DNA of 24,057 bases, taken from the IMG/VR virus record IMGVR_UViG_3300017776_000184, positions 1 to 24,057 of that record. One strand, given 5' to 3'. The stretch comes from a virus. Shown here one piece after another: positions 12,450 through 20,570 of this stretch (position 1 is its first letter; every line of letters begins with the position of its first letter). The position numbers were made by a program, and so were the translations under genes. The notes beneath the pieces are model-generated. The model saw only the letters and a program-made list of their open reading frames with translations, was not told where the DNA came from and did no database searches.

Positions 12450-12506
12450 TACCGATGACTGGAATCGAACCAGCACGTCTTTTCAGACAATGGATTTTGA
12501 ATCCAT
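12450..12506 (-). other. 3' half of a tRNA-Leu(CAA) gene (integration core)
   Basis: On the - strand an anticodon arm (12490-12506) has loop TTCAAAA, giving anticodon CAA at 12497-12499. It is followed by a variable arm GTCT-GAAA-AGAC of class II type. A T arm (12458-12474) has the loop TTCGATT, and the 3' acceptor strand is CATCGGT with discriminator A at 12450. CCA is not encoded (CTA follows). Upstream of the anticodon arm there is no D arm and no matching 5' acceptor strand (ACCGATG), so it is not a working tRNA. It restores the 3' part of a host tRNA-Leu gene on integration. Confidence 0.75.
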
Positions 12507-12552
12507 TAATTCTGAGAGGTGAAAGACCTATTTATACCGAAATATACCGAAA

Positions 12553-13668
12553 TTACGCAGTTGCTGTCTGCGTTATTGTGGTTAATTGATCTACGACTGC
12601 GTTATTTATACGCGTCATTTCTTTTGCACTAATACCAGCATAGTGTTTCTCTACTACTAACAATGTGCTATCTCCAATGGATTTACTCGCATCTTCTAAG
12701 CCTAACACTGGACGCGCTAATTGTGCGTTTAATCTGCGTAAGTCATGCGTAGTGAACTTGAATCCTAGTGCCATATTAATTTGTGGAATAATGTGATTTC
12801 TTACATAAGAATATTTAAAGTCTAATGGTCTTTTAAAACCTTTGTCTTTCCATTTCCTAAGTATTGCCATCACATCTTCATGTACAGTACGCACTAAACG
12901 AAATTTCTTACGTTTAACTCTTATACTCAATTCATTGGTTTCAAAATTAACGTGTTTCCATTTAAACTCTTTCTCTGGATAGTTAGTATTCTGTCCTAAT
13001 AATTCAGATATACGCAAACCAGTGAGTGTAAATAATTTTATATAGTCTTTATGGTATTGAGTTAAATGATCATCATATAATAACTGATATGCTTGACTAG
13101 GTTTCCATTCCAGGTGTGTAATCTCAGGTAACTCATCATCAGTATACTTATCTAGTTTATTAATGACTACAAAGTCAATACGCTCCATCATACGCGCCCA
13201 ATCAAACATTGCTTTTAACTCAGTTAGATAGCCATTAATAGTGTGTCTACTTAAATGAGCATGATGAGATTTGAATATTTCCCAACCTTGTTTTTCGCCA
13301 TCTGGAATCATAGTGCGTTTAAGTGAGCGTATTTCACGCACAGTAGTTTCTTTAGCAAAAACTCTATACATTGCTCTAATGCACGCATTTCTACGCTTAA
13401 TAGTACCTTTATTGGTTTTATTCGCTAAAAAGTTACCACGATAATCTTTTACTAATTGCTCAAGTGTAAGCTCTTCTTGTGGTTGCTTAACTACCTTTTT
13501 CCAATCATCTGATCCAATTTTTTTCATATTGTCAATATAATCAAAAGTAGCTTTAGCTGAAAGTGCTTCTTTTTTAGTTTTATAATAACTGTCTTTCCAT
13601 TTATTTGTAAATGGATCTTTATGAGTAAGTCTGTAATTACCCATTTTATGTTTATTAATTGATGCCAT
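12553..13668 (-). CDS. int: tyrosine recombinase integrase
   Basis: The 371-residue product has an N-terminal arm-binding segment (about 1-60) and a core-binding helical domain (65-185). The catalytic domain (190-355) shows Arg219 in TGLRISELLG, basic KRKKFR at 252-257 with the likely Lys, His308-x-x-Arg311 in THDLRR, and nucleophile Tyr343 in KHYAGIS. The usual second His/Trp is Asp333 (IGDST), a variant seen among some phage and island integrases. It catalyses recombination between attP and a host tRNA-Leu gene, and is excision-competent with the excisionase-like protein at 14840. AAGGA lies about ten bases before the ATG. Its stop abuts the last arm repeat, and the attP terminator ends its transcript. 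Confidence 0.9.
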   Translation of the reverse strand: MASINKHKMGNYRLTHKDPFTNKWKDSYYKTKKEALSAKATFDYIDNMKKIGSDDWKKVVKQPQEELTLEQLVKDYRGNFLANKTNKGTIKRRNACIRAMYRVFAKETTVREIRSLKRTMIPDGEKQGWEIFKSHHAHLSRHTINGYLTELKAMFDWARMMERIDFVVINKLDKYTDDELPEITHLEWKPSQAYQLLYDDHLTQYHKDYIKLFTLTGLRISELLGQNTNYPEKEFKWKHVNFETNELSIRVKRKKFRLVRTVHEDVMAILRKWKDKGFKRPLDFKYSYVRNHIIPQINMALGFKFTTHDLRRLNAQLARPVLGLEDASKSIGDSTLLVVEKHYAGISAKEMTRINNAVVDQLTTITQTATA

Positions 13669-13732: not shown

Positions 13733-14533
13733 TCACTCTGTAAGAAATTTAACTTTCGCAATAACTTTCAGACTCATCCATTCAATCTTATTGTAGCTAA
13801 TTGCCCCAACAGTTGTGCCATTTTTATGCTTGTATATGATCGGCTGTGGAATGTAGTGATTACCTACAACTGATTTCATTGCGTCAAAAATTAATGGCAT
13901 AGTAGATATATTTTTTTGAATTTGATTGTGTGTTTCAGTATCGATAATAGTATCAATCGGGTGTGATTCTAAATTTGTATGCTTTACCCCAACATCCCAA
14001 AAAAATTTCATTTTTTCGACAGAATAGCCTAGTTTTTTAGCTTGAAGTTCTAAATCAGTAACTTTGTTAATGACTCTGCCAAATTTGTATCCATCTCTGT
14101 ACAAAGTCACATTACAAATAAAATCATAGTCTAATGCCTCCCAGTGATTAGACTCAACTTGTTTTTTATTTACAAGCTCTTTTAAGTGGCCAATCTCCTC
14201 AGTTTTTTGCGCCACTTTGTCTCTGAGCAATTCAATATGCTCATAAAGCAACTGTTGTTCCATTTTAGTTTTATCTCCTTTACTTATAATAGTGTTGTCG
14301 TCACTATTCCTAGTAGTGGTTATAGTATTATCAATGTGGTGTATTTTGAATCCTAACGCTGTAGCTACAGAAAATAAACTGCTAGTTCTAACTTTTTTAA
14401 CCGTACCATCTCTCCATCTATATACCTGAGTACGTGATATTTTTGTTTTATTTTCAATATCACTTGGACTCATTCCGCAATTATCTATCATATAAATAAT
14501 AGCTTGTACTGATGATTTATGTTGCATTTCCAT
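13733..14533 (-). CDS. putative lysogeny repressor: HTH, coiled coil, PAS-like domain
   Basis: Residues 10-62 form a helix-turn-helix (MIDNCGMSPSDIENKTKISRTQVYRWRDG), 91-126 a heptad-patterned helix, and 137-263 an alpha/beta region resembling a PAS fold (KKLGYSVEKM, then IYKHKNGTTVGAISYNKIEWMSLKVIAKVKF). No LexA/S24 protease domain is present, so induction would not be by RecA-driven cleavage. The start is ATG 14533 with GAGG six bases upstream, rather than GTG 14545, which lies in that ribosome site. It is leftward, divergent from the Cro-like gene and 64 bases upstream of integrase, the place of a CI-type repressor. The PAS call is by pattern and moderate. Confidence 0.7.
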   Translation of the reverse strand: MEMQHKSSVQAIIYMIDNCGMSPSDIENKTKISRTQVYRWRDGTVKKVRTSSLFSVATALGFKIHHIDNTITTTRNSDDNTIISKGDKTKMEQQLLYEHIELLRDKVAQKTEEIGHLKELVNKKQVESNHWEALDYDFICNVTLYRDGYKFGRVINKVTDLELQAKKLGYSVEKMKFFWDVGVKHTNLESHPIDTIIDTETHNQIQKNISTMPLIFDAMKSVVGNHYIPQPIIYKHKNGTTVGAISYNKIEWMSLKVIAKVKFLTE

Positions 14534-14545
14534 ATTAAACCTCAC

Positions 14546-14639
14546 GTTGAATATAATTGAATATAAATGTAATAAAATGTAAAAAAAAGAAAAAAATACT
14601 TTTTAAAGGCAACATTAAGTTATAAACTAACCATAGAAT
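14546..14639. promoter_or_regulatory. divergent repressor/Cro control region
   Basis: This 94-base AT-rich gap separates the leftward repressor from the rightward Cro-like gene. Two back-to-back copies of TTGAATATAA occupy 14547-14556 and 14557-14566, and ATGTAA recurs at 14568-14573 and 14578-14583, so helically phased 10-bp repeats run for almost 40 bases: good operator candidates. TATAAA at 14621-14626 is a possible -10 for the rightward promoter. It would start transcription about six bases before the ATG at 14640, giving an almost leaderless message, which fits the absence of a ribosome site there. Confidence 0.55.
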
Positions 14640-14855
14640 ATGATTACAAAACGCAACAAAACAATAATTACGCTACAAGATTTGATGACAAATAATAAAA
14701 TAAGTTTACGTTCATTAGCTCGTCAGATAGCACTAAGTCCTAGTATGCTAAGTAGGATGATAAATGGCAAGCGTAAGTTTCGCTACGAACATAAAATAAA
14801 AGTAGCTTTAGTGTTGCGAAAAGATATTAAGGAAATAGTATGGCCAGGAAAATAG
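14640..14855 (+). CDS. Cro-like HTH regulator
   Basis: The 71-residue product is a single XRE-type helix-turn-helix: LQDLMTNNKISLRSLARQIALSPSMLSRMINGKRKF, with the recognition helix at SPSMLSRMI. It has the size and position of Cro, first gene of the rightward early operon and divergent from the repressor. It probably binds the repeats in the shared control region to turn down repressor synthesis. No Shine-Dalgarno precedes the ATG. It overlaps the excisionase-like gene by 16 bases. Confidence 0.75.
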   Translation: MITKRNKTIITLQDLMTNNKISLRSLARQIALSPSMLSRMINGKRKFRYEHKIKVALVLRKDIKEIVWPGK

Positions 14856-15070
14856 GCTCATTACAAGAATGGTTAAATATGGATCAAGCTGCTGAATATT
14901 TAGGTGTATCAAAGCGCTCTATTATTAATGCCATTGAACTCACTAAAAGTAATGTAGAAAATAAAAAATTAAAGATTAAACGATTTGGTAATCGATGGCT
15001 AGTGAGTAGAACTAGTATTGATAATACTACTGAAATCGTAACATCCGCAAAATATGGGCGGTGCAATTAA
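14840..15070 (+). CDS. excisionase-family DNA-binding protein
   Basis: The 76-residue product contains MDQAAEYLGVSKRSIINAIE ... KIKRFGNRWLVSRTSID, the winged-helix layout of HTH_17/excisionase family proteins (MerR-like, 'AAEYLGVS' followed by an arginine/lysine-rich wing and 'W-x-V'). AAGGAA at 14829-14834 supports ATG 14840 over the internal ATG at 14879. In the early operon of an integrating phage it may direct integrase to excise, or act as a transcription regulator. Its last codons overlap the left arm of the 15052-15120 inverted repeat. Confidence 0.7.
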   Translation: MARKIGSLQEWLNMDQAAEYLGVSKRSIINAIELTKSNVENKKLKIKRFGNRWLVSRTSIDNTTEIVTSAKYGRCN

Positions 15071-15413: not shown

Positions 15414-15902
15414 ATGGGATTATTAGATGATATCGAAATTTCAGAGAGTTCGGAAAGTTCTTATATGAAATTCGAGAAAGGCGAGAATCGTTTTCGCATG
15501 GTGTCCAAGCCAACACTCGGTTATATATACTGGGAAGATAAGACACCAACGCGTATTGCAAAAGCAAGCGAAGCAGCAGATGGATCAGAACCTAAGTTAT
15601 TCTGGAGTATGATCGTATGGAATAACGATAGAGTAAGAATCCTTGAGATTACACAGTCTACGGTGCATAAAGCTCTTAAATCACTAGAAGATAATTCAGA
15701 CTGGGGAAACCTGACTGAGTATGATGTGATTGTAAATAAGAATGGCGAAGGTATGGAAACATCATATAATGTAGTGCCATGCCCAAAGACACCGCTACCT
15801 AAAGAAGCGATTGCAACTATTAAAGATTTTAATAAGAATTATGATCCTAAGAAAATCTTTGAGACTGTTGAGCAATCAGATGCGGATAGCTTGCCGTTTT
15901 AA
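15414..15902 (+). CDS. ssb: single-stranded DNA-binding protein
   Basis: The 162-residue product ends in an acidic tail closing with DADSLPF, which matches the SSB C-terminal tip (acidic residues then Pro-Phe) that binds replication partners. The body (ENRFRMVSKPTLGYIYWED ... FWSMIVWNNDRVRILEITQSTVHKAL ... YDVIVNKNGEGMETSYNVVP) has aromatic and basic residues on predicted strands like an OB fold of phage gp2.5/gp32-like proteins. It has its own ribosome site (AGGAAG) after a hairpin-containing gap, suggesting separate control. It would coat single strands during replication with the primase-helicase downstream. Confidence 0.75.
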   Translation: MGLLDDIEISESSESSYMKFEKGENRFRMVSKPTLGYIYWEDKTPTRIAKASEAADGSEPKLFWSMIVWNNDRVRILEITQSTVHKALKSLEDNSDWGNLTEYDVIVNKNGEGMETSYNVVPCPKTPLPKEAIATIKDFNKNYDPKKIFETVEQSDADSLPF

Positions 15903-16252
15903 TGCCAAGTAGCGCATCACGTAAAGGTTATTCTGGAGAAGTCGAGGTCGTGAAAATACTTCAAGACCTCGGCTTTGATGCCAAACGTAGTTTTGGTTCT
16001 GATGGTCGTGCATTTGGCGAAGCCAGTGATATAGATGTAAAGGCCACTAAAGATGATTTGACACTCTTAGTGCAAGTCAAAAGGCGCAAGAAGATTGCGA
16101 GTTATTTAGAATTTAAAAACGCAAACGTAGTCATGGTCAGGCAAGATCGTAAACCGTGGGTATGGATTGTAGATAATAATATGATGCAAAAATTAATAGG
16201 CGAGGTCAAAAGTGAAAATAATTGTCCTACGCACGGTGGTAATCAGCCATGA
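15902..16252 (+). CDS. Holliday-junction resolvase-like PD-(D/E)XK nuclease
   Basis: The 116-residue product begins SRKGYSGEVEVVKILQDLGFDAKRSFGSDGRAFGEASDIDV, as in archaeal Hjc-type resolvases (KG-x-x-x-E, a Gly-phe turn, then the acidic residue). Candidate catalytic residues are Glu13/Glu15, Asp43/Asp45 and Gln58-Val-Lys60, where Gln replaces the usual Glu of E-x-K, a substitution found in related nucleases. It would cut branched DNA before packaging or during recombination. TAATG overlap couples it to the SSB-like gene. Confidence 0.65.
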   Translation: MPSSASRKGYSGEVEVVKILQDLGFDAKRSFGSDGRAFGEASDIDVKATKDDLTLLVQVKRRKKIASYLEFKNANVVMVRQDRKPWVWIVDNNMMQKLIGEVKSENNCPTHGGNQP

Positions 16253-16467
16253 TCTCGCCCAAACTTAAAATAATAGATGTGGTTAGTAACGCAGTGGAAA
16301 AAGCATTGATTAAACATATAAATAAACAAAACAATTGCTGGATAAATGAGGGAGAACGTGTGGACATAGCGATGGAAGTGTGTGATGAGGTAATTAGAAT
16401 TCTATATCCACGTAAAGATTATATCAGTCCGCATGATCCAGTAGATGAACACCAGGAGCGAAAATGA
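16249..16467 (+). CDS. hypothetical protein, 72 aa
   Basis: I do not recognise this gene. It overlaps both neighbours by four bases (ATGA). Residues 10-50 look helical (VVSNAVEKALIKHINKQ ... VDIAMEVCDEVIRIL), and the C-terminus is polar with several His and Asp (YISPHDPVDEHQERK). No motif of a known enzyme is visible. By position it is part of the replication operon. Confidence 0.55.
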   Translation: MISPKLKIIDVVSNAVEKALIKHINKQNNCWINEGERVDIAMEVCDEVIRILYPRKDYISPHDPVDEHQERK

Positions 16468-16661
16468 GTAACTGGAAACAGTATAAAATAGATGTAATTA
16501 AAAAGTACGTAGAAAAGTACGGTAGTAGAGACAAAGCAATTGTTGAGATGGATGCTCAAATTAGATCATTAAAACTTAAGGCAGATACACTAAGTGAAAT
16601 GGTGGACTGGGAACAAATAGAGAAAGAAATTGATGACGAAGAGAAAAATAGCGAAGCGTAA
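16464..16661 (+). CDS. hypothetical helical protein, 65 aa
   Basis: I do not recognise this gene. ATGA overlap at the start, with AGGAG nearby upstream. It is almost entirely helical and charged (WKQYKIDVIKKYVEKYGSRDKAIVEMDAQIRSLKLKADTLSEMVDWEQIEKEIDDEE), probably a coiled coil, with an acidic C-terminus. The next gene starts 29 bases before its end and is very basic. Confidence 0.55.
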   Translation: MSNWKQYKIDVIKKYVEKYGSRDKAIVEMDAQIRSLKLKADTLSEMVDWEQIEKEIDDEEKNSEA

Positions 16662-16806
16662 AGCACGTAAGAAAAAACTTAAAAAGAACTTAAATATGCG
16701 ACGCAATACAAAATTGCAAAATAAAGAATCTGCGAAGAAAAAAAGTAGACTGCGTAAGATTGCAGAGTTATTTAAAAAACGCGATCAATCGAGATTAGAG
16801 AAATGA
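16633..16806 (+). CDS. highly basic protein, 57 aa
   Basis: ATG 16633 starts a frame that overlaps the preceding gene by 29 bases and ends at TGA 16804-16806, overlapping the next ATG (16803). The product begins MTKRKIAKRKARKKKLKKN and continues RRNTKLQNKESAKKKSRLRKIAELFKKRDQ: nearly half Lys and Arg, helical, without Cys or Trp. Without it 16662-16802 would be an unexplained gap in a gapless operon, which supports it. It probably binds nucleic acid or the acidic partner encoded just upstream. No family recognised. Confidence 0.6.
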   Translation: MTKRKIAKRKARKKKLKKNLNMRRNTKLQNKESAKKKSRLRKIAELFKKRDQSRLEK

Positions 16807-17195
16807 ACACTAAAGAATTTAGAGATTACAGAAAGAAATTTTTAACAGATGCGTTATCACTTAGTGATAAAAAGTCCGAGGAGTATACGATTTCTAATCC
16901 AGATCGTTTATTCAATTTCAAGCACGTTGCGGAACGTCTTGGAACTACACCAGAACAAGCATTAATGACATATGTATTAAAACATATTGATGCCATATGT
17001 AATGATGCGAAGACTGGTACAATTGTATCCGATGAAAAGATAGAATCTCGTGCGCATGATGTATGCAATTACATGATTCTATATAGCGCTCTTAAAACAG
17101 AAACAACACCACAACCAAATGACAATAACACTAAACGAATCGGAGAGGAATCTAGCCGCGCAGTCAGGAATGGCGCGGATGGTACAAAACTCTAA
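16803..17195 (+). CDS. MazG-like / DUF1599-type nucleotide-modification-associated protein
   Basis: The 130-residue product contains SLSDKKSEEYTISNPDRLFNFKHVAERLGTTPEQALMTYVLKHIDAICND ... ESRAHDVCNYMILYSALK. This matches the DUF1599 pattern (K-x-x-EY ... D-R-x-x-NFK ... G-x-T-P-E-x-AL ... KH ... E-x-x-x-D-x-x-NY). Those all-alpha proteins are related to MazG-type nucleotide pyrophosphohydrolases and accompany phage DNA modification genes. Conserved Glu, Asp and His would bind Mg2+ and nucleotide. The C-terminal 25 residues are poorly ordered and overlap the next gene by 77 bases, so the functional part is likely 1-100. Confidence 0.65.
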   Translation: MNTKEFRDYRKKFLTDALSLSDKKSEEYTISNPDRLFNFKHVAERLGTTPEQALMTYVLKHIDAICNDAKTGTIVSDEKIESRAHDVCNYMILYSALKTETTPQPNDNNTKRIGEESSRAVRNGADGTKL

Positions 17196-17586
17196 AAACC
17201 GAGTAAAATCTAATGGCAAGCGCACACTTGATGTCGATATAAATGGCATCGGTGGAGAGATTGCAGTCTGTAGATATTTAAATAGATTTCCAGATCTATC
17301 TATTGGGCCACATCATCGTGGTTATGATTTAGTGGCTAAGAATAAAAAAATTGATGTTAAAACCACCACATATAATCCTGGATATTTACAAGCTAAACTA
17401 AATGCACGCATTGAAGATGCAGATCTTTATATACTAGTTTATTCACAATTTCCAGACTTTACCATTCTAGGCGGTGCATTAGCAGATCAATTAATTAATC
17501 AAAGCAATGTACGTGACATGGGTTATGGTCAAAAGTATATCTTAGAACAATCACAACTAAAATCTTTGAGGTCACTCTTTGCTTAG
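17119..17586 (+). CDS. PD-(D/E)XK nuclease-like protein
   Basis: The 155-residue product contains INGIGGEIAVCRYLNRFPDL, HHRGYDLVAKNKKIDVKTTTYNPGYL and later ADLYILVYSQFP. Candidate active-site residues are Glu47, Asp70 and Asp79-Val-Lys81, spaced as in small phage PD-(D/E)XK endonucleases. The N-terminal 40 residues are helical and basic, possibly DNA-binding. It overlaps the previous gene by 77 bases and the next by eight. Substrate is unknown; roles in branch cutting, host DNA degradation or restriction are all possible. Confidence 0.6.
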   Translation: MTITLNESERNLAAQSGMARMVQNSKNRVKSNGKRTLDVDINGIGGEIAVCRYLNRFPDLSIGPHHRGYDLVAKNKKIDVKTTTYNPGYLQAKLNARIEDADLYILVYSQFPDFTILGGALADQLINQSNVRDMGYGQKYILEQSQLKSLRSLFA

Positions 17587-17965
17587 TGGTAATAAAGGTA
17601 AGGTAGGCGAGTTGGCGGTGCGTAAAGATTTAGTGTCTGTCGGCTACAATATATATATACCAGAAGTCGATACTGCGCAAGTGGATCTTATTGTTGAGTG
17701 CCATACTGGGATTATTAAGAAAGTACAGGTTAAGACTGCGTATAAGCTAAAAACTGAGACAAGTCTTGAGATTGACACTAGAAAATATATTGATACTGGA
17801 CGTGTGGATATTATCGCAATCTATTACCAGCCAGAAGATATTATTGCTTATGTACCGTTTGAAAATAATCGGTCTATTAGCCTTGCATTACGCACGGCAC
17901 TTAACAATCAAAATGAAGGTAGGAAATGGTTTTATAGCTATAGTCGATTTCCTGAATTTAGCTGA
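17579..17965 (+). CDS. PD-(D/E)XK endonuclease-like protein
   Basis: Start TTG 17579 is supported by GAGG at 17568-17571, seven bases upstream. The product begins NKGKVGELAVRKDLVSVGYNIYIPEVDTAQVDLIVECHTG and then KKVQVKTAYK, close to the small 'group I intron endonuclease-like' PD-(D/E)XK family. Candidate residues are Glu11, Asp36 and Gln50-Val-Lys52 (Gln in the E-x-K position, as in the 15902 gene). It is the third nuclease-like gene in 2 kb and differs clearly in sequence from the other two. Confidence 0.65.
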   Translation: MLSGNKGKVGELAVRKDLVSVGYNIYIPEVDTAQVDLIVECHTGIIKKVQVKTAYKLKTETSLEIDTRKYIDTGRVDIIAIYYQPEDIIAYVPFENNRSISLALRTALNNQNEGRKWFYSYSRFPEFS

Positions 17966-18744
17966 TGATGAAAGTAATATCACTCGGAGTCGGAGTTCAA
18001 TCCACTGCAATGTATATGATGAGTTCACTTGGACGTATTGAACGTGCTGATCACGCAGTATTTGCTGATCCTGGAGCAGAGTTACCACGTACATATGAAA
18101 TTTTAGAATTATTAAAAGACTGGGCCAAATATAATAATGGCATACCAATTCATATTACCACAGAAAAAAATCTATATAAAGATATTCTTAATAAATCTAA
18201 CTCTACTGGTCATAGATGGGCCAGTATACCAGCTTTTAGTAAAAATGGTGGTATGATAAGACGGCAATGTACCGCGGAATATAAAATTGAACCAGTAGTA
18301 CAAAAAATACGTGATTTGCATGGATTAAAAAAACATAAGCATATGCCTAAGACTCAAGTGTGGTTAGGTATATCGTTAGATGAAATACAACGAATGAAAA
18401 TTAGTCAATTACCACGCATTGATTATTACTATCCATTAATTGAAGAGCGTATGACACGCTCAAATTGTATAAAACTATTTAAAGAAAAAAACTTTCCAGT
18501 GCCACCTAAATCTAGTTGTGTGTTTTGTCCTTATCACAGCGATAAAAACTGGAAAGAATTAAAAGAAGTGCATCCAGAAGCGTGGGATCAAGCAGTTAAA
18601 GTGGACGAATCTATACGTGATATGTCTAAAAAAGGTGTTAAAGAACCAATTTATGTACATCGATCATGCAAGCCATTAAAAGATGTTGAATTTGTAGATC
18701 AAGGAGAACTGTTTATGTGTGAAGAAGGATTCTGCGGATTATGA
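17965..18744 (+). CDS. PAPS-reductase-like PP-loop (adenine nucleotide alpha hydrolase) enzyme
   Basis: The 259-residue product starts KVISLGVGVQSTAMYMM, a PP-loop (S-x-G-x-x-S/T) variant for ATP-type pyrophosphate binding, followed by HAVFADPGAELPRTYE as in PAPS-reductase and ATP-sulfurylase-like proteins. Cys102 (RRQCTAEYKIEP), Cys185-x-x-Cys188 (SSCVFCPYHSD) and Cys252/Cys257 near the end could bind a metal or FeS cluster or carry sulfur. Such proteins are common in phages, with no settled role. It lies beside a zinc ribbon and a DNA methyltransferase, so nucleotide or DNA thio-modification is a plausible inference. Confidence 0.7.
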   Translation: MMKVISLGVGVQSTAMYMMSSLGRIERADHAVFADPGAELPRTYEILELLKDWAKYNNGIPIHITTEKNLYKDILNKSNSTGHRWASIPAFSKNGGMIRRQCTAEYKIEPVVQKIRDLHGLKKHKHMPKTQVWLGISLDEIQRMKISQLPRIDYYYPLIEERMTRSNCIKLFKEKNFPVPPKSSCVFCPYHSDKNWKELKEVHPEAWDQAVKVDESIRDMSKKGVKEPIYVHRSCKPLKDVEFVDQGELFMCEEGFCGL

Positions 18745-18989: not shown

Positions 18990-19147
18990 ACACCAGTATA
19001 AAAGCGTGTCCAAAGTGCAAATTGACGTGGGAAAGAGTGAGTGTAAAGGTTTTTATGACACCGTACAAGATTCATCCATTAGGTGTGATACCGAGGTATG
19101 GCAAGGAAGTTAAGATTTGTCCGAAGTGCGTGAATGAAACTACTTGA
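18950..19147 (+). CDS. small zinc-ribbon protein
   Basis: The 65-residue product carries two CPKC knuckles, Cys20-x-x-Cys23 and Cys57-x-x-Cys60, enough for one zinc site. Between them lies a basic strand-rich segment (WERVSVKVFMTPYKIHPLGV). GAGGGAAG precedes the ATG at good distance, supporting this start despite the 40-base overlap with the upstream gene. The methyltransferase start overlaps its last codons. It may bind DNA or a partner enzyme. Confidence 0.6.
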   Translation: MQKTERRGRTQPVDTSIKACPKCKLTWERVSVKVFMTPYKIHPLGVIPRYGKEVKICPKCVNETT

Positions 19148-20570
19148 TTTATTTAGTGGAATTGGTGGTTTTCATAAAGGCTTTGAACAAGCTGGATTTG
19201 AATTTGACTGGGTGGGATTCAGTGAGATTGATAAGTACGCCAGCGCAGTGTATAAACATAGATTCCCAAATGCAGAGGAGTTAGGCGATGTTAACCTTAT
19301 TCAACCAAAACAATTACCAGATCACATTGACTTCCTTTGTGGAGGATTTCCATGTCAAGCATTCAGCGTGGCTGGAAAACGACAAGGTTTCGATGACACT
19401 AGAGGTACACTCTTTTTTGAAATCGCAAGGATTCTCAAGTATTTCAGAGAACACAGAAAACCAATCGACTATTTTGTACTCGAAAATGTTAAAGGCCTAC
19501 TTAGTCACGACAATGGACGAACATTTGCTACAATCTACCGAGTTCTTACCGACATTGGCTATACCGTTGAATTCCAGTTACTCAATACTCGCTGGTTTCT
19601 ACCCCAAAATAGAGAGCGGATATACCTTGTCGGATATGTTGGAAGTGGACGTGGATCAAAAGTATTTCCTATCGGAGAAGAGCGTAAAGCAGTTAATGGT
19701 AAGCAAAGAACGAGGAATGCCGTCTCCTATATTGACGCATCATATTACAAAGGAGTAGATGGTAAACGAACAATGATTGCAGAATTAAATCAAATTGGAA
19801 TAATAGGTAAAGACAGTGAAGCTACTCGAGTCTATGATTCAAATGGATTGTCTAGGACTATAAAATATGGCGGTGGTATGGGCGCTAAGACTGGGTTGTA
19901 TAAAGTAGGTGATTTGCAAATTACTGCTAAAAAACGTAGTCACGACACACCAAAAGAAATTAATGAGTATTTAAAAGCAAATAAGCATGGCAAAACTATC
20001 CAGGATATTGCGACTAATCTTAGTTTACCAAAAACTCAGGTAGAGCATTATTTTAGAAGTGATAAGTATCGAGCAGTGCCAAGTCCAGAACACTGGTTAT
20101 TATTAAAAGAATATTTAGGCTTTGATGACACCTATGATAAACACGTTACTGAAATTTATGAAAAAGAAGTTGAATTTGAAGCATCAAGACGAGTGTATAG
20201 TAGTGATGGTATCTCAAAAACTTTAGATACACACGAGAGTGGCTATTATCAAGTCAAACCAGTATTAACACCAAATCGTCCTGAAAAAAGACAAAATGGG
20301 CGCAGATTTAAAGAAGATGGCGAACCGATGTTTACCTTAACTGGACAAGATCAACATGGCGTGCAAGTTAAATCCAACATCAGGCGCTTAACACCAACAG
20401 AATGTGAGCGTTTACAAGGTTTTCCAGATGGTTGGACTAGTGAAGGTGTAATGAATGGCAAAGTAGTGCCGATGAGTGACACGCAAAGATATAAGCAGTG
20501 CGGTAACGCAGTGACGGTTAACGTGGTACAAGCCGTAGCAGAAAGACTTCGCCCACTAAAATGCAAATAA
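19134..20570 (+). CDS. DNA (cytosine-5) methyltransferase
   Basis: All main motifs are present in order: I DLFSGIGG (5-12), IV with catalytic Cys74 in GFPCQAFS, VI Glu117-Asn-Val, VIII QNRERIY (158-164), IX RRLTPTECERLQGFPDGW (417-434) and X GNAV (457-460). S-adenosylmethionine is the methyl donor. The long region between VIII and IX (about 165-415) is the target recognition part, with an HTH-like stretch at 286-311 (KTIQDIATNLSLPKTQVEHY). No cognate restriction enzyme is obvious, so it is probably an orphan enzyme shielding phage DNA or modifying host DNA. Codons for about residues 50-200 use C in third position far more than the rest of the gene. Confidence 0.9.
   Translation: MKLLDLFSGIGGFHKGFEQAGFEFDWVGFSEIDKYASAVYKHRFPNAEELGDVNLIQPKQLPDHIDFLCGGFPCQAFSVAGKRQGFDDTRGTLFFEIARILKYFREHRKPIDYFVLENVKGLLSHDNGRTFATIYRVLTDIGYTVEFQLLNTRWFLPQNRERIYLVGYVGSGRGSKVFPIGEERKAVNGKQRTRNAVSYIDASYYKGVDGKRTMIAELNQIGIIGKDSEATRVYDSNGLSRTIKYGGGMGAKTGLYKVGDLQITAKKRSHDTPKEINEYLKANKHGKTIQDIATNLSLPKTQVEHYFRSDKYRAVPSPEHWLLLKEYLGFDDTYDKHVTEIYEKEVEFEASRRVYSSDGISKTLDTHESGYYQVKPVLTPNRPEKRQNGRRFKEDGEPMFTLTGQDQHGVQVKSNIRRLTPTECERLQGFPDGWTSEGVMNGKVVPMSDTQRYKQCGNAVTVNVVQAVAERLRPLKCK

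Follow-up and report, generated by a model that had tools for sequence, protein, structure and literature searches.

A candidate phage lysogeny repressor with a predicted PAS-like domain and a conserved internal start at its module border

What releases a temperate phage from lysogeny when the gene in the CI position encodes no recognizable self-cutting domain? This question is raised by a gene at 13733..14533 (-) of the IMG/VR virus record IMGVR_UViG_3300017776_000184, analyzed here over its positions 1 to 24,057 (the window, 24,057 nt). The gene is an intact open reading frame of 266 aa from the ATG at 14533, or of 270 aa from an alternative in-frame GTG upstream, at 14545. A sequence-only reading had placed it in the CI position and described an HTH followed by a coiled coil and, at the C-terminus, a domain of PAS-like pattern, with no S24 peptidase. 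The first two modules are borne out: the N-terminus carries a helix-turn-helix of the Cro/C1 type (14342..14479 (-); Pfam HTH_26, E 5.8e-6, exceeding the Pfam cut-off), and the coiled-coil segment (14162..14254 (-); residues ~98-128 of the 270-aa frame) forms one long helix in an AlphaFold2 model. The CI position is likewise correct, since a tyrosine integrase lies directly downstream on the same strand (12553..13668 (-); Pfam Phage_integrase, E 2.4e-5, slightly under the cut-off), while two genes diverge from the repressor candidate: a Cro-like HTH protein of 71 aa (14640..14855 (+); HTH_3, E 1.1e-5; phrog_3 transcriptional repressor, 9e-7) and an excisionase-like HTH_17 protein of 76 aa (14840..15070 (+); HTH_17, 1.9e-7; phrog_2655 excisionase, 5.7e-4). 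Integrase homologs occupy the equivalent position in the related loci L003, L114, L119 and L120. The switch region between the repressor candidate and the cro-like gene (14534..14639, no strand) includes a tandem 10-bp repeat (TTGAATATAA x2, 14547-14566) that is a weak candidate operator, being a short repeat in AT-rich DNA.

The window holds further features of a phage genome. A probable attP core (12451..12510 (-)) resembles, as read from the sequence, the 3' part of a tRNA-Leu(CAA) gene, and ARAGORN calls no tRNA at this position. On both sides of the candidate, between 12263 and 12553, lie ATACCGAAA-type repeats that may serve as arm sites for the integrase, and next comes a hairpin with a run of T. 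A nuclease-like gene cluster (15902-17965 (+)) includes Hjc-like (15902) and PDDEXK_5 (17579) proteins and a phrog_18407 protein (17119), and is followed by a PAPS-reductase-like protein (17965-18744 (+); phrog_424, E 4e-43). A DNA methyltransferase (19134-20570 (+)) matches phrog_116 over 474 residues compared to 284 profile positions; thus, an insertion of ~190 aa is likely, whether an intein, a target-recognition domain or an inserted gene.

The absence of a LexA-type protease also holds: searches of the repressor candidate, the 24-kb window and 18 related contigs detect no S24 peptidase, while control genomes gave matches. A tyrosine integrase is encoded by 15 of these 18 contigs, all of which lack a detectable S24 domain.

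Relatives of the gene were gathered stepwise from IMG/VR, where the contigs are metagenomic fragments; they point to an aquatic origin of the samples. The gene is conserved in L003, and the same architecture recurs in about 16 further loci. By eye, the N-terminal regions of the 17 aligned sequences fall into five HTH groups: A (window, L003, L114, L119, L120), B (L103, L106, L116, L117), C (L107, L112, L118), D (L105, L125) and E (L005, L111, L115). At E 1e-3, blastp sets apart only L105/L125 and joins several of the other groups through matches that are weak or short (e.g., L111/L118, 26%; window/L103, over 20 aa); thus, a remote relationship between groups C and E is possible, and it is safer to speak of at least four dissimilar types. 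The C-terminal parts follow a different pattern of kinship, with identities of 86% for L111/L114, 84% for L117/L118 and 82% for L105/L120 where an N-terminal match is undetectable in each pair. The converse is seen for the window and L003, which share 96% N-terminal identity with no detectable C-terminal match. Group A has a backbone of integrase, Cro, Xis and SSB in common. By these sequence comparisons, regulators of temperate phages have the coil-PAS module in common although their HTHs are of four or more dissimilar types, and heads and tails are thus exchanged between them.

Several loci depart from the standard layout. In L003 (3942-4744) and L120 (3686-4377), a frameshift falls within the PAS part, either by assembly error or by natural loss. 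In L103 (3433-4231), the HTH and the coil-PAS module are read in separate frames that meet at a run of seven G, and the HTH stop codon is found a few bases ahead of the PAS start; this layout is either a true split, a phase-variable G7 run or an assembly error. In two loci, the place of the integrase next to the gene is taken by a gene of ~550 aa on the opposite strand (L103, 4327-5982; L117, 4554-6206). By eye, the L103 neighbor looks ParB-like, and L103 and L117 are perhaps plasmid-like prophages. Beyond these loci, a viral protein of 245 aa in BFVD (A0A516M3Q0) is 42% identical to the modeled C-terminal domain with a TM-score of 0.77, and clearly belongs to the same family. Searches of phage and plasmid collections returned no relative of the C-terminal domain, the matches being absent, insignificant or restricted to the N-terminal half, and scanning DNA with a degenerate pattern of the WE.LDYD motif yielded only unrelated proteins beyond the contigs already in hand. 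No host was found by a protein scan of genome contigs or by the attP pattern.

Residues ~130-270, which make up the C-terminal domain, have no match in sequence-family searches of Pfam, PHROG, NCBIfam or the PDB. An AlphaFold2 model from a 4-row alignment was uninformative (pLDDT 46), and the alignment of 17 relatives gave a model with pLDDT 83.9 and pTM 0.73. The predicted order of elements in this model (the coil helix, two strands, several helices and three strands) is that of a PAS domain with its five-stranded sheet, here assigned to residues 135-270 (13736..14143 (-)) from the predicted fold and the conserved positions. When the model was searched against PDB folds, the best 50 of 995 matches were all PAS/LOV domains (probability 0.89-1.00, best E 2.8e-3), including FixL, DOS, HIF2a/ARNT, hERG and Vivid, with TM-scores against single PAS domains that are moderate (target-normalized maximum of 0.65). 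At the sequence level, the domain was not recovered as PAS: the Pfam PAS families match none of the 17 members, a PDB sequence-profile search with the family does not detect PAS, and hhalign against a small alignment of E. coli PAS domains gives a probability of 2.8%, no better than an EAL control, so that no sequence-level evidence for PAS is claimed. PAS sequences diverge widely, and a family-level sequence match is not strictly defining for the fold. Thus, of the two checks suggested earlier for residues 130-266, structure prediction gives a PAS-like fold and profile search does not recover PAS; since the profile tests fail, the assignment depends on the predicted fold, and a PAS-like C-terminal domain is supported but not proven.

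The conservation of this domain is more than would be expected by chance, as relatives with dissimilar N-termini keep ~22 invariant C-terminal positions among the 17 aligned sequences. The invariant set includes L172-G173-Y174, W183-D184-x-G186, H195-P196, G228, Y231, P233, K253 and W256, and many of the invariant residues are polar (D184, H195, K224, Y231, K241 and K253, with R157 nearly invariant). No known cofactor or ligand motif is recognized among the conserved positions of the 17-member alignment. A LOV reading was not adopted, as no conserved Cys is seen by eye; nor was a heme reading, as the helix preceding the last three strands has no conserved His, also by eye.

A further feature of the gene, absent from the sequence-only reading as is the module exchange, lies between its two halves; these two features may be no less important than the PAS fold. 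The HTH/coil junction of the window gene includes a Shine-Dalgarno (SD) sequence, AAAGGAG (14275..14281 (-)), ahead of an in-frame ATG at 14263 (AAAGGAGATAAAACTAAA-ATG), and forms the strongest internal start region of the gene. The annotated start has the weaker SD of the two (-6.9, compared to -8.7 for the internal one), and the predicted product of the internal ATG is a coil-PAS protein of 176 aa (13733..14263 (-)) without the HTH. An SD-like stretch with an in-frame ATG, GTG or TTG is present at the HTH/coil border of every complete family member. With its immediate neighborhood excluded, the junction is the best start region in frame in 12 of 16 genes; L105, L107, L114 and L111 are the weakest cases. 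The anti-SD energies at the junction sum to -124 kcal/mol over the 16 genes, compared to -19 for random positions (0 of 20,000 draws reach -124) and -81 +/- 7.5 for synonymous shuffles with a free choice of start within 8 codons (0 of 2,000 reach -124), counts that overstate independence because the junction was chosen after the sequences had been viewed and the genes are partly related. Shared history among the family members means that the 16 genes stand for fewer than 16 independent cases.

The border of the two modules coincides with this putative ribosome-binding site and start codon. The similarity of L003 to the window gene ends at the internal ATG, where the identity between the two drops. 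L111 and L117, which are in register at the junction, show only background similarity up to the start codon and 12-15 identical bases out of 15 from there on; in L105, L107 and L120, also in register, such a jump occurs no more than 15 bases away from the internal start. This reading of similarity changes covers pairs in register at the junction; pairs with coils that differ by indels fall outside it. As the internal SD and start exceed both chance and the synonymous null, the 176-aa coil-PAS protein without an HTH is probably made from the same gene as well.

Taken as a switch, the gene product would maintain lysogeny as the repressor of a temperate, siphovirus-like phage, with an HTH that binds operators in the divergent int/rep-cro/xis region and a coiled coil and PAS domain that dimerize the repressor and set its DNA affinity. 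As no S24 protease is found, release from repression is proposed to occur by a change in the PAS domain and not by RecA-stimulated self-cleavage, and would be independent of the SOS response. The change may be triggered by a small molecule, the redox state or a protein partner. The short coil-PAS protein would associate with the full-length repressor and thereby modulate or relieve repression, and the HTH/coil border would double as an exchange point for DNA-binding heads and PAS tails between phages. A probability of about 0.6 is assigned to this main reading, in which lysogeny is maintained by a PAS-controlled repressor outside the S24 type and the same gene supplies its HTH-less partner.

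The most serious challenge to the built-in partner is that HTH and coil-PAS were once neighboring genes, the internal SD and ATG being left over from their fusion, with only the full-length protein made today. The two separate frames of L103, the module border that falls at the ATG, and the location of the SD on the HTH side in the window and L003 are all as expected of such a fusion, which is a possible, if tentative, account. It is harder to reconcile with an SD that exceeds the synonymous null family-wide and with each HTH type having its own SD at this site; on these grounds, the internal SD seems to be kept. The sensing role of the PAS-like domain is open to a different objection, namely that the domain is a dimerization module only, a role to which PAS domains can be confined, in a constitutive repressor with induction by a falling repressor dose, by Cro or by proteolysis through a host protease. 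Some phage repressors outside the S24 type are plain oligomers (e.g., P2 C and Mu c), and no cofactor motif is recognized in the C-terminal domain here. The PAS domain of VqmA likewise carries dimerization (PMC8284805). This alternative is nonetheless rather unlikely, as ~22 invariant positions, many of them polar and maintained across dissimilar HTHs, exceed what a dimer interface usually needs.

Two other explanations leave the architecture in place and reassign its use. Conventional SOS induction could still operate if a separate antirepressor under LexA control attached to the PAS or coil part, in the manner of Gifsy or phage 186 Tum. Such a protein could plausibly dock on the PAS-coil, and antirepressors of small size are readily overlooked in fragmentary contigs; against this, no candidate is recognized near the switch, a weak point in an incomplete window, and the explanation is judged improbable. 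That the gene instead serves as an accessory regulator, acting on early genes or on those of the host, and not as the immunity repressor, is more doubtful again. The repressor function is inferred from position only, and L103 and L117 have the 550-aa opposite-strand gene, not an integrase, as neighbor; in most loci, however, the gene adjoins the integrase and diverges from the early gene, and no other CI candidate is seen within the window. The best reading is that a PAS-type repressor and an HTH-less partner are used by a phage family with an integrase and no detectable S24 repressor.

The proposed switch shares features with several known systems. With repressors of the Lambda CI/LexA type (HTH and S24), it has in common the genome position, the N-terminal HTH, the C-terminal part for oligomerization and the divergence from cro; it differs from these in the lack of S24, the PAS-like predicted fold in its place and the internal start codon between the domains. 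Tn5 provides a precedent for the latter, with an internal start in Tnp that yields the DNA-binding-deficient partner Inh. Similarly, a single reading frame probably yields an active and a truncated form in the phage gene, here as a prediction and in the setting of a lysogeny switch. One-component PAS regulators of bacteria and LOV-HTH proteins (e.g., the heme PAS of FG214, 10jx, a fold match) also combine a PAS fold and a DNA-binding domain in one polypeptide; these are cellular proteins, and no cofactor motif is recognized in the phage protein. A phage parallel is VqmA of vibriophage VP882, a PAS protein that governs lysis as an activator of the antirepressor Qtip, in a phage that has a separate CI as well (PMC12802170, PMC8284805). 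The PAS part of VqmA dimerizes and modulates DNA affinity, and is N-terminal to an HTH DNA-binding domain (PMC8284805). Both are phage-encoded PAS and HTH proteins that act, or in the present case would act, in a lysis-lysogeny circuit; by contrast with VqmA, the order here is the reverse, HTH-coil-PAS, and the gene is in the CI position itself. Among open-licence PMC papers, no PAS-type CI repressor and no repressor of HTH-coil-PAS layout was found.

More broadly, the switches of these temperate phages may form a modular family, one in which a PAS sensor is passed between dissimilar heads at a conserved internal start, each gene yields a repressor and an HTH-less PAS partner, and a metabolic or redox signal together with the isoform ratio controls lysogeny in place of SOS cleavage; this wider proposal is tentative and falls short of even odds. 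The exchange of heads and tails at a start codon would be a clear example of immunity specificity and signal input evolving separately. The PAS tail that replaces the usual self-cutting domain suggests an induction cue other than DNA damage. DNA damage is the usual trigger in tests of prophage induction; if the main reading is true, a temperate-phage family with a PAS-type, non-S24 repressor answers other cues, and mitomycin C assays would miss such phages.
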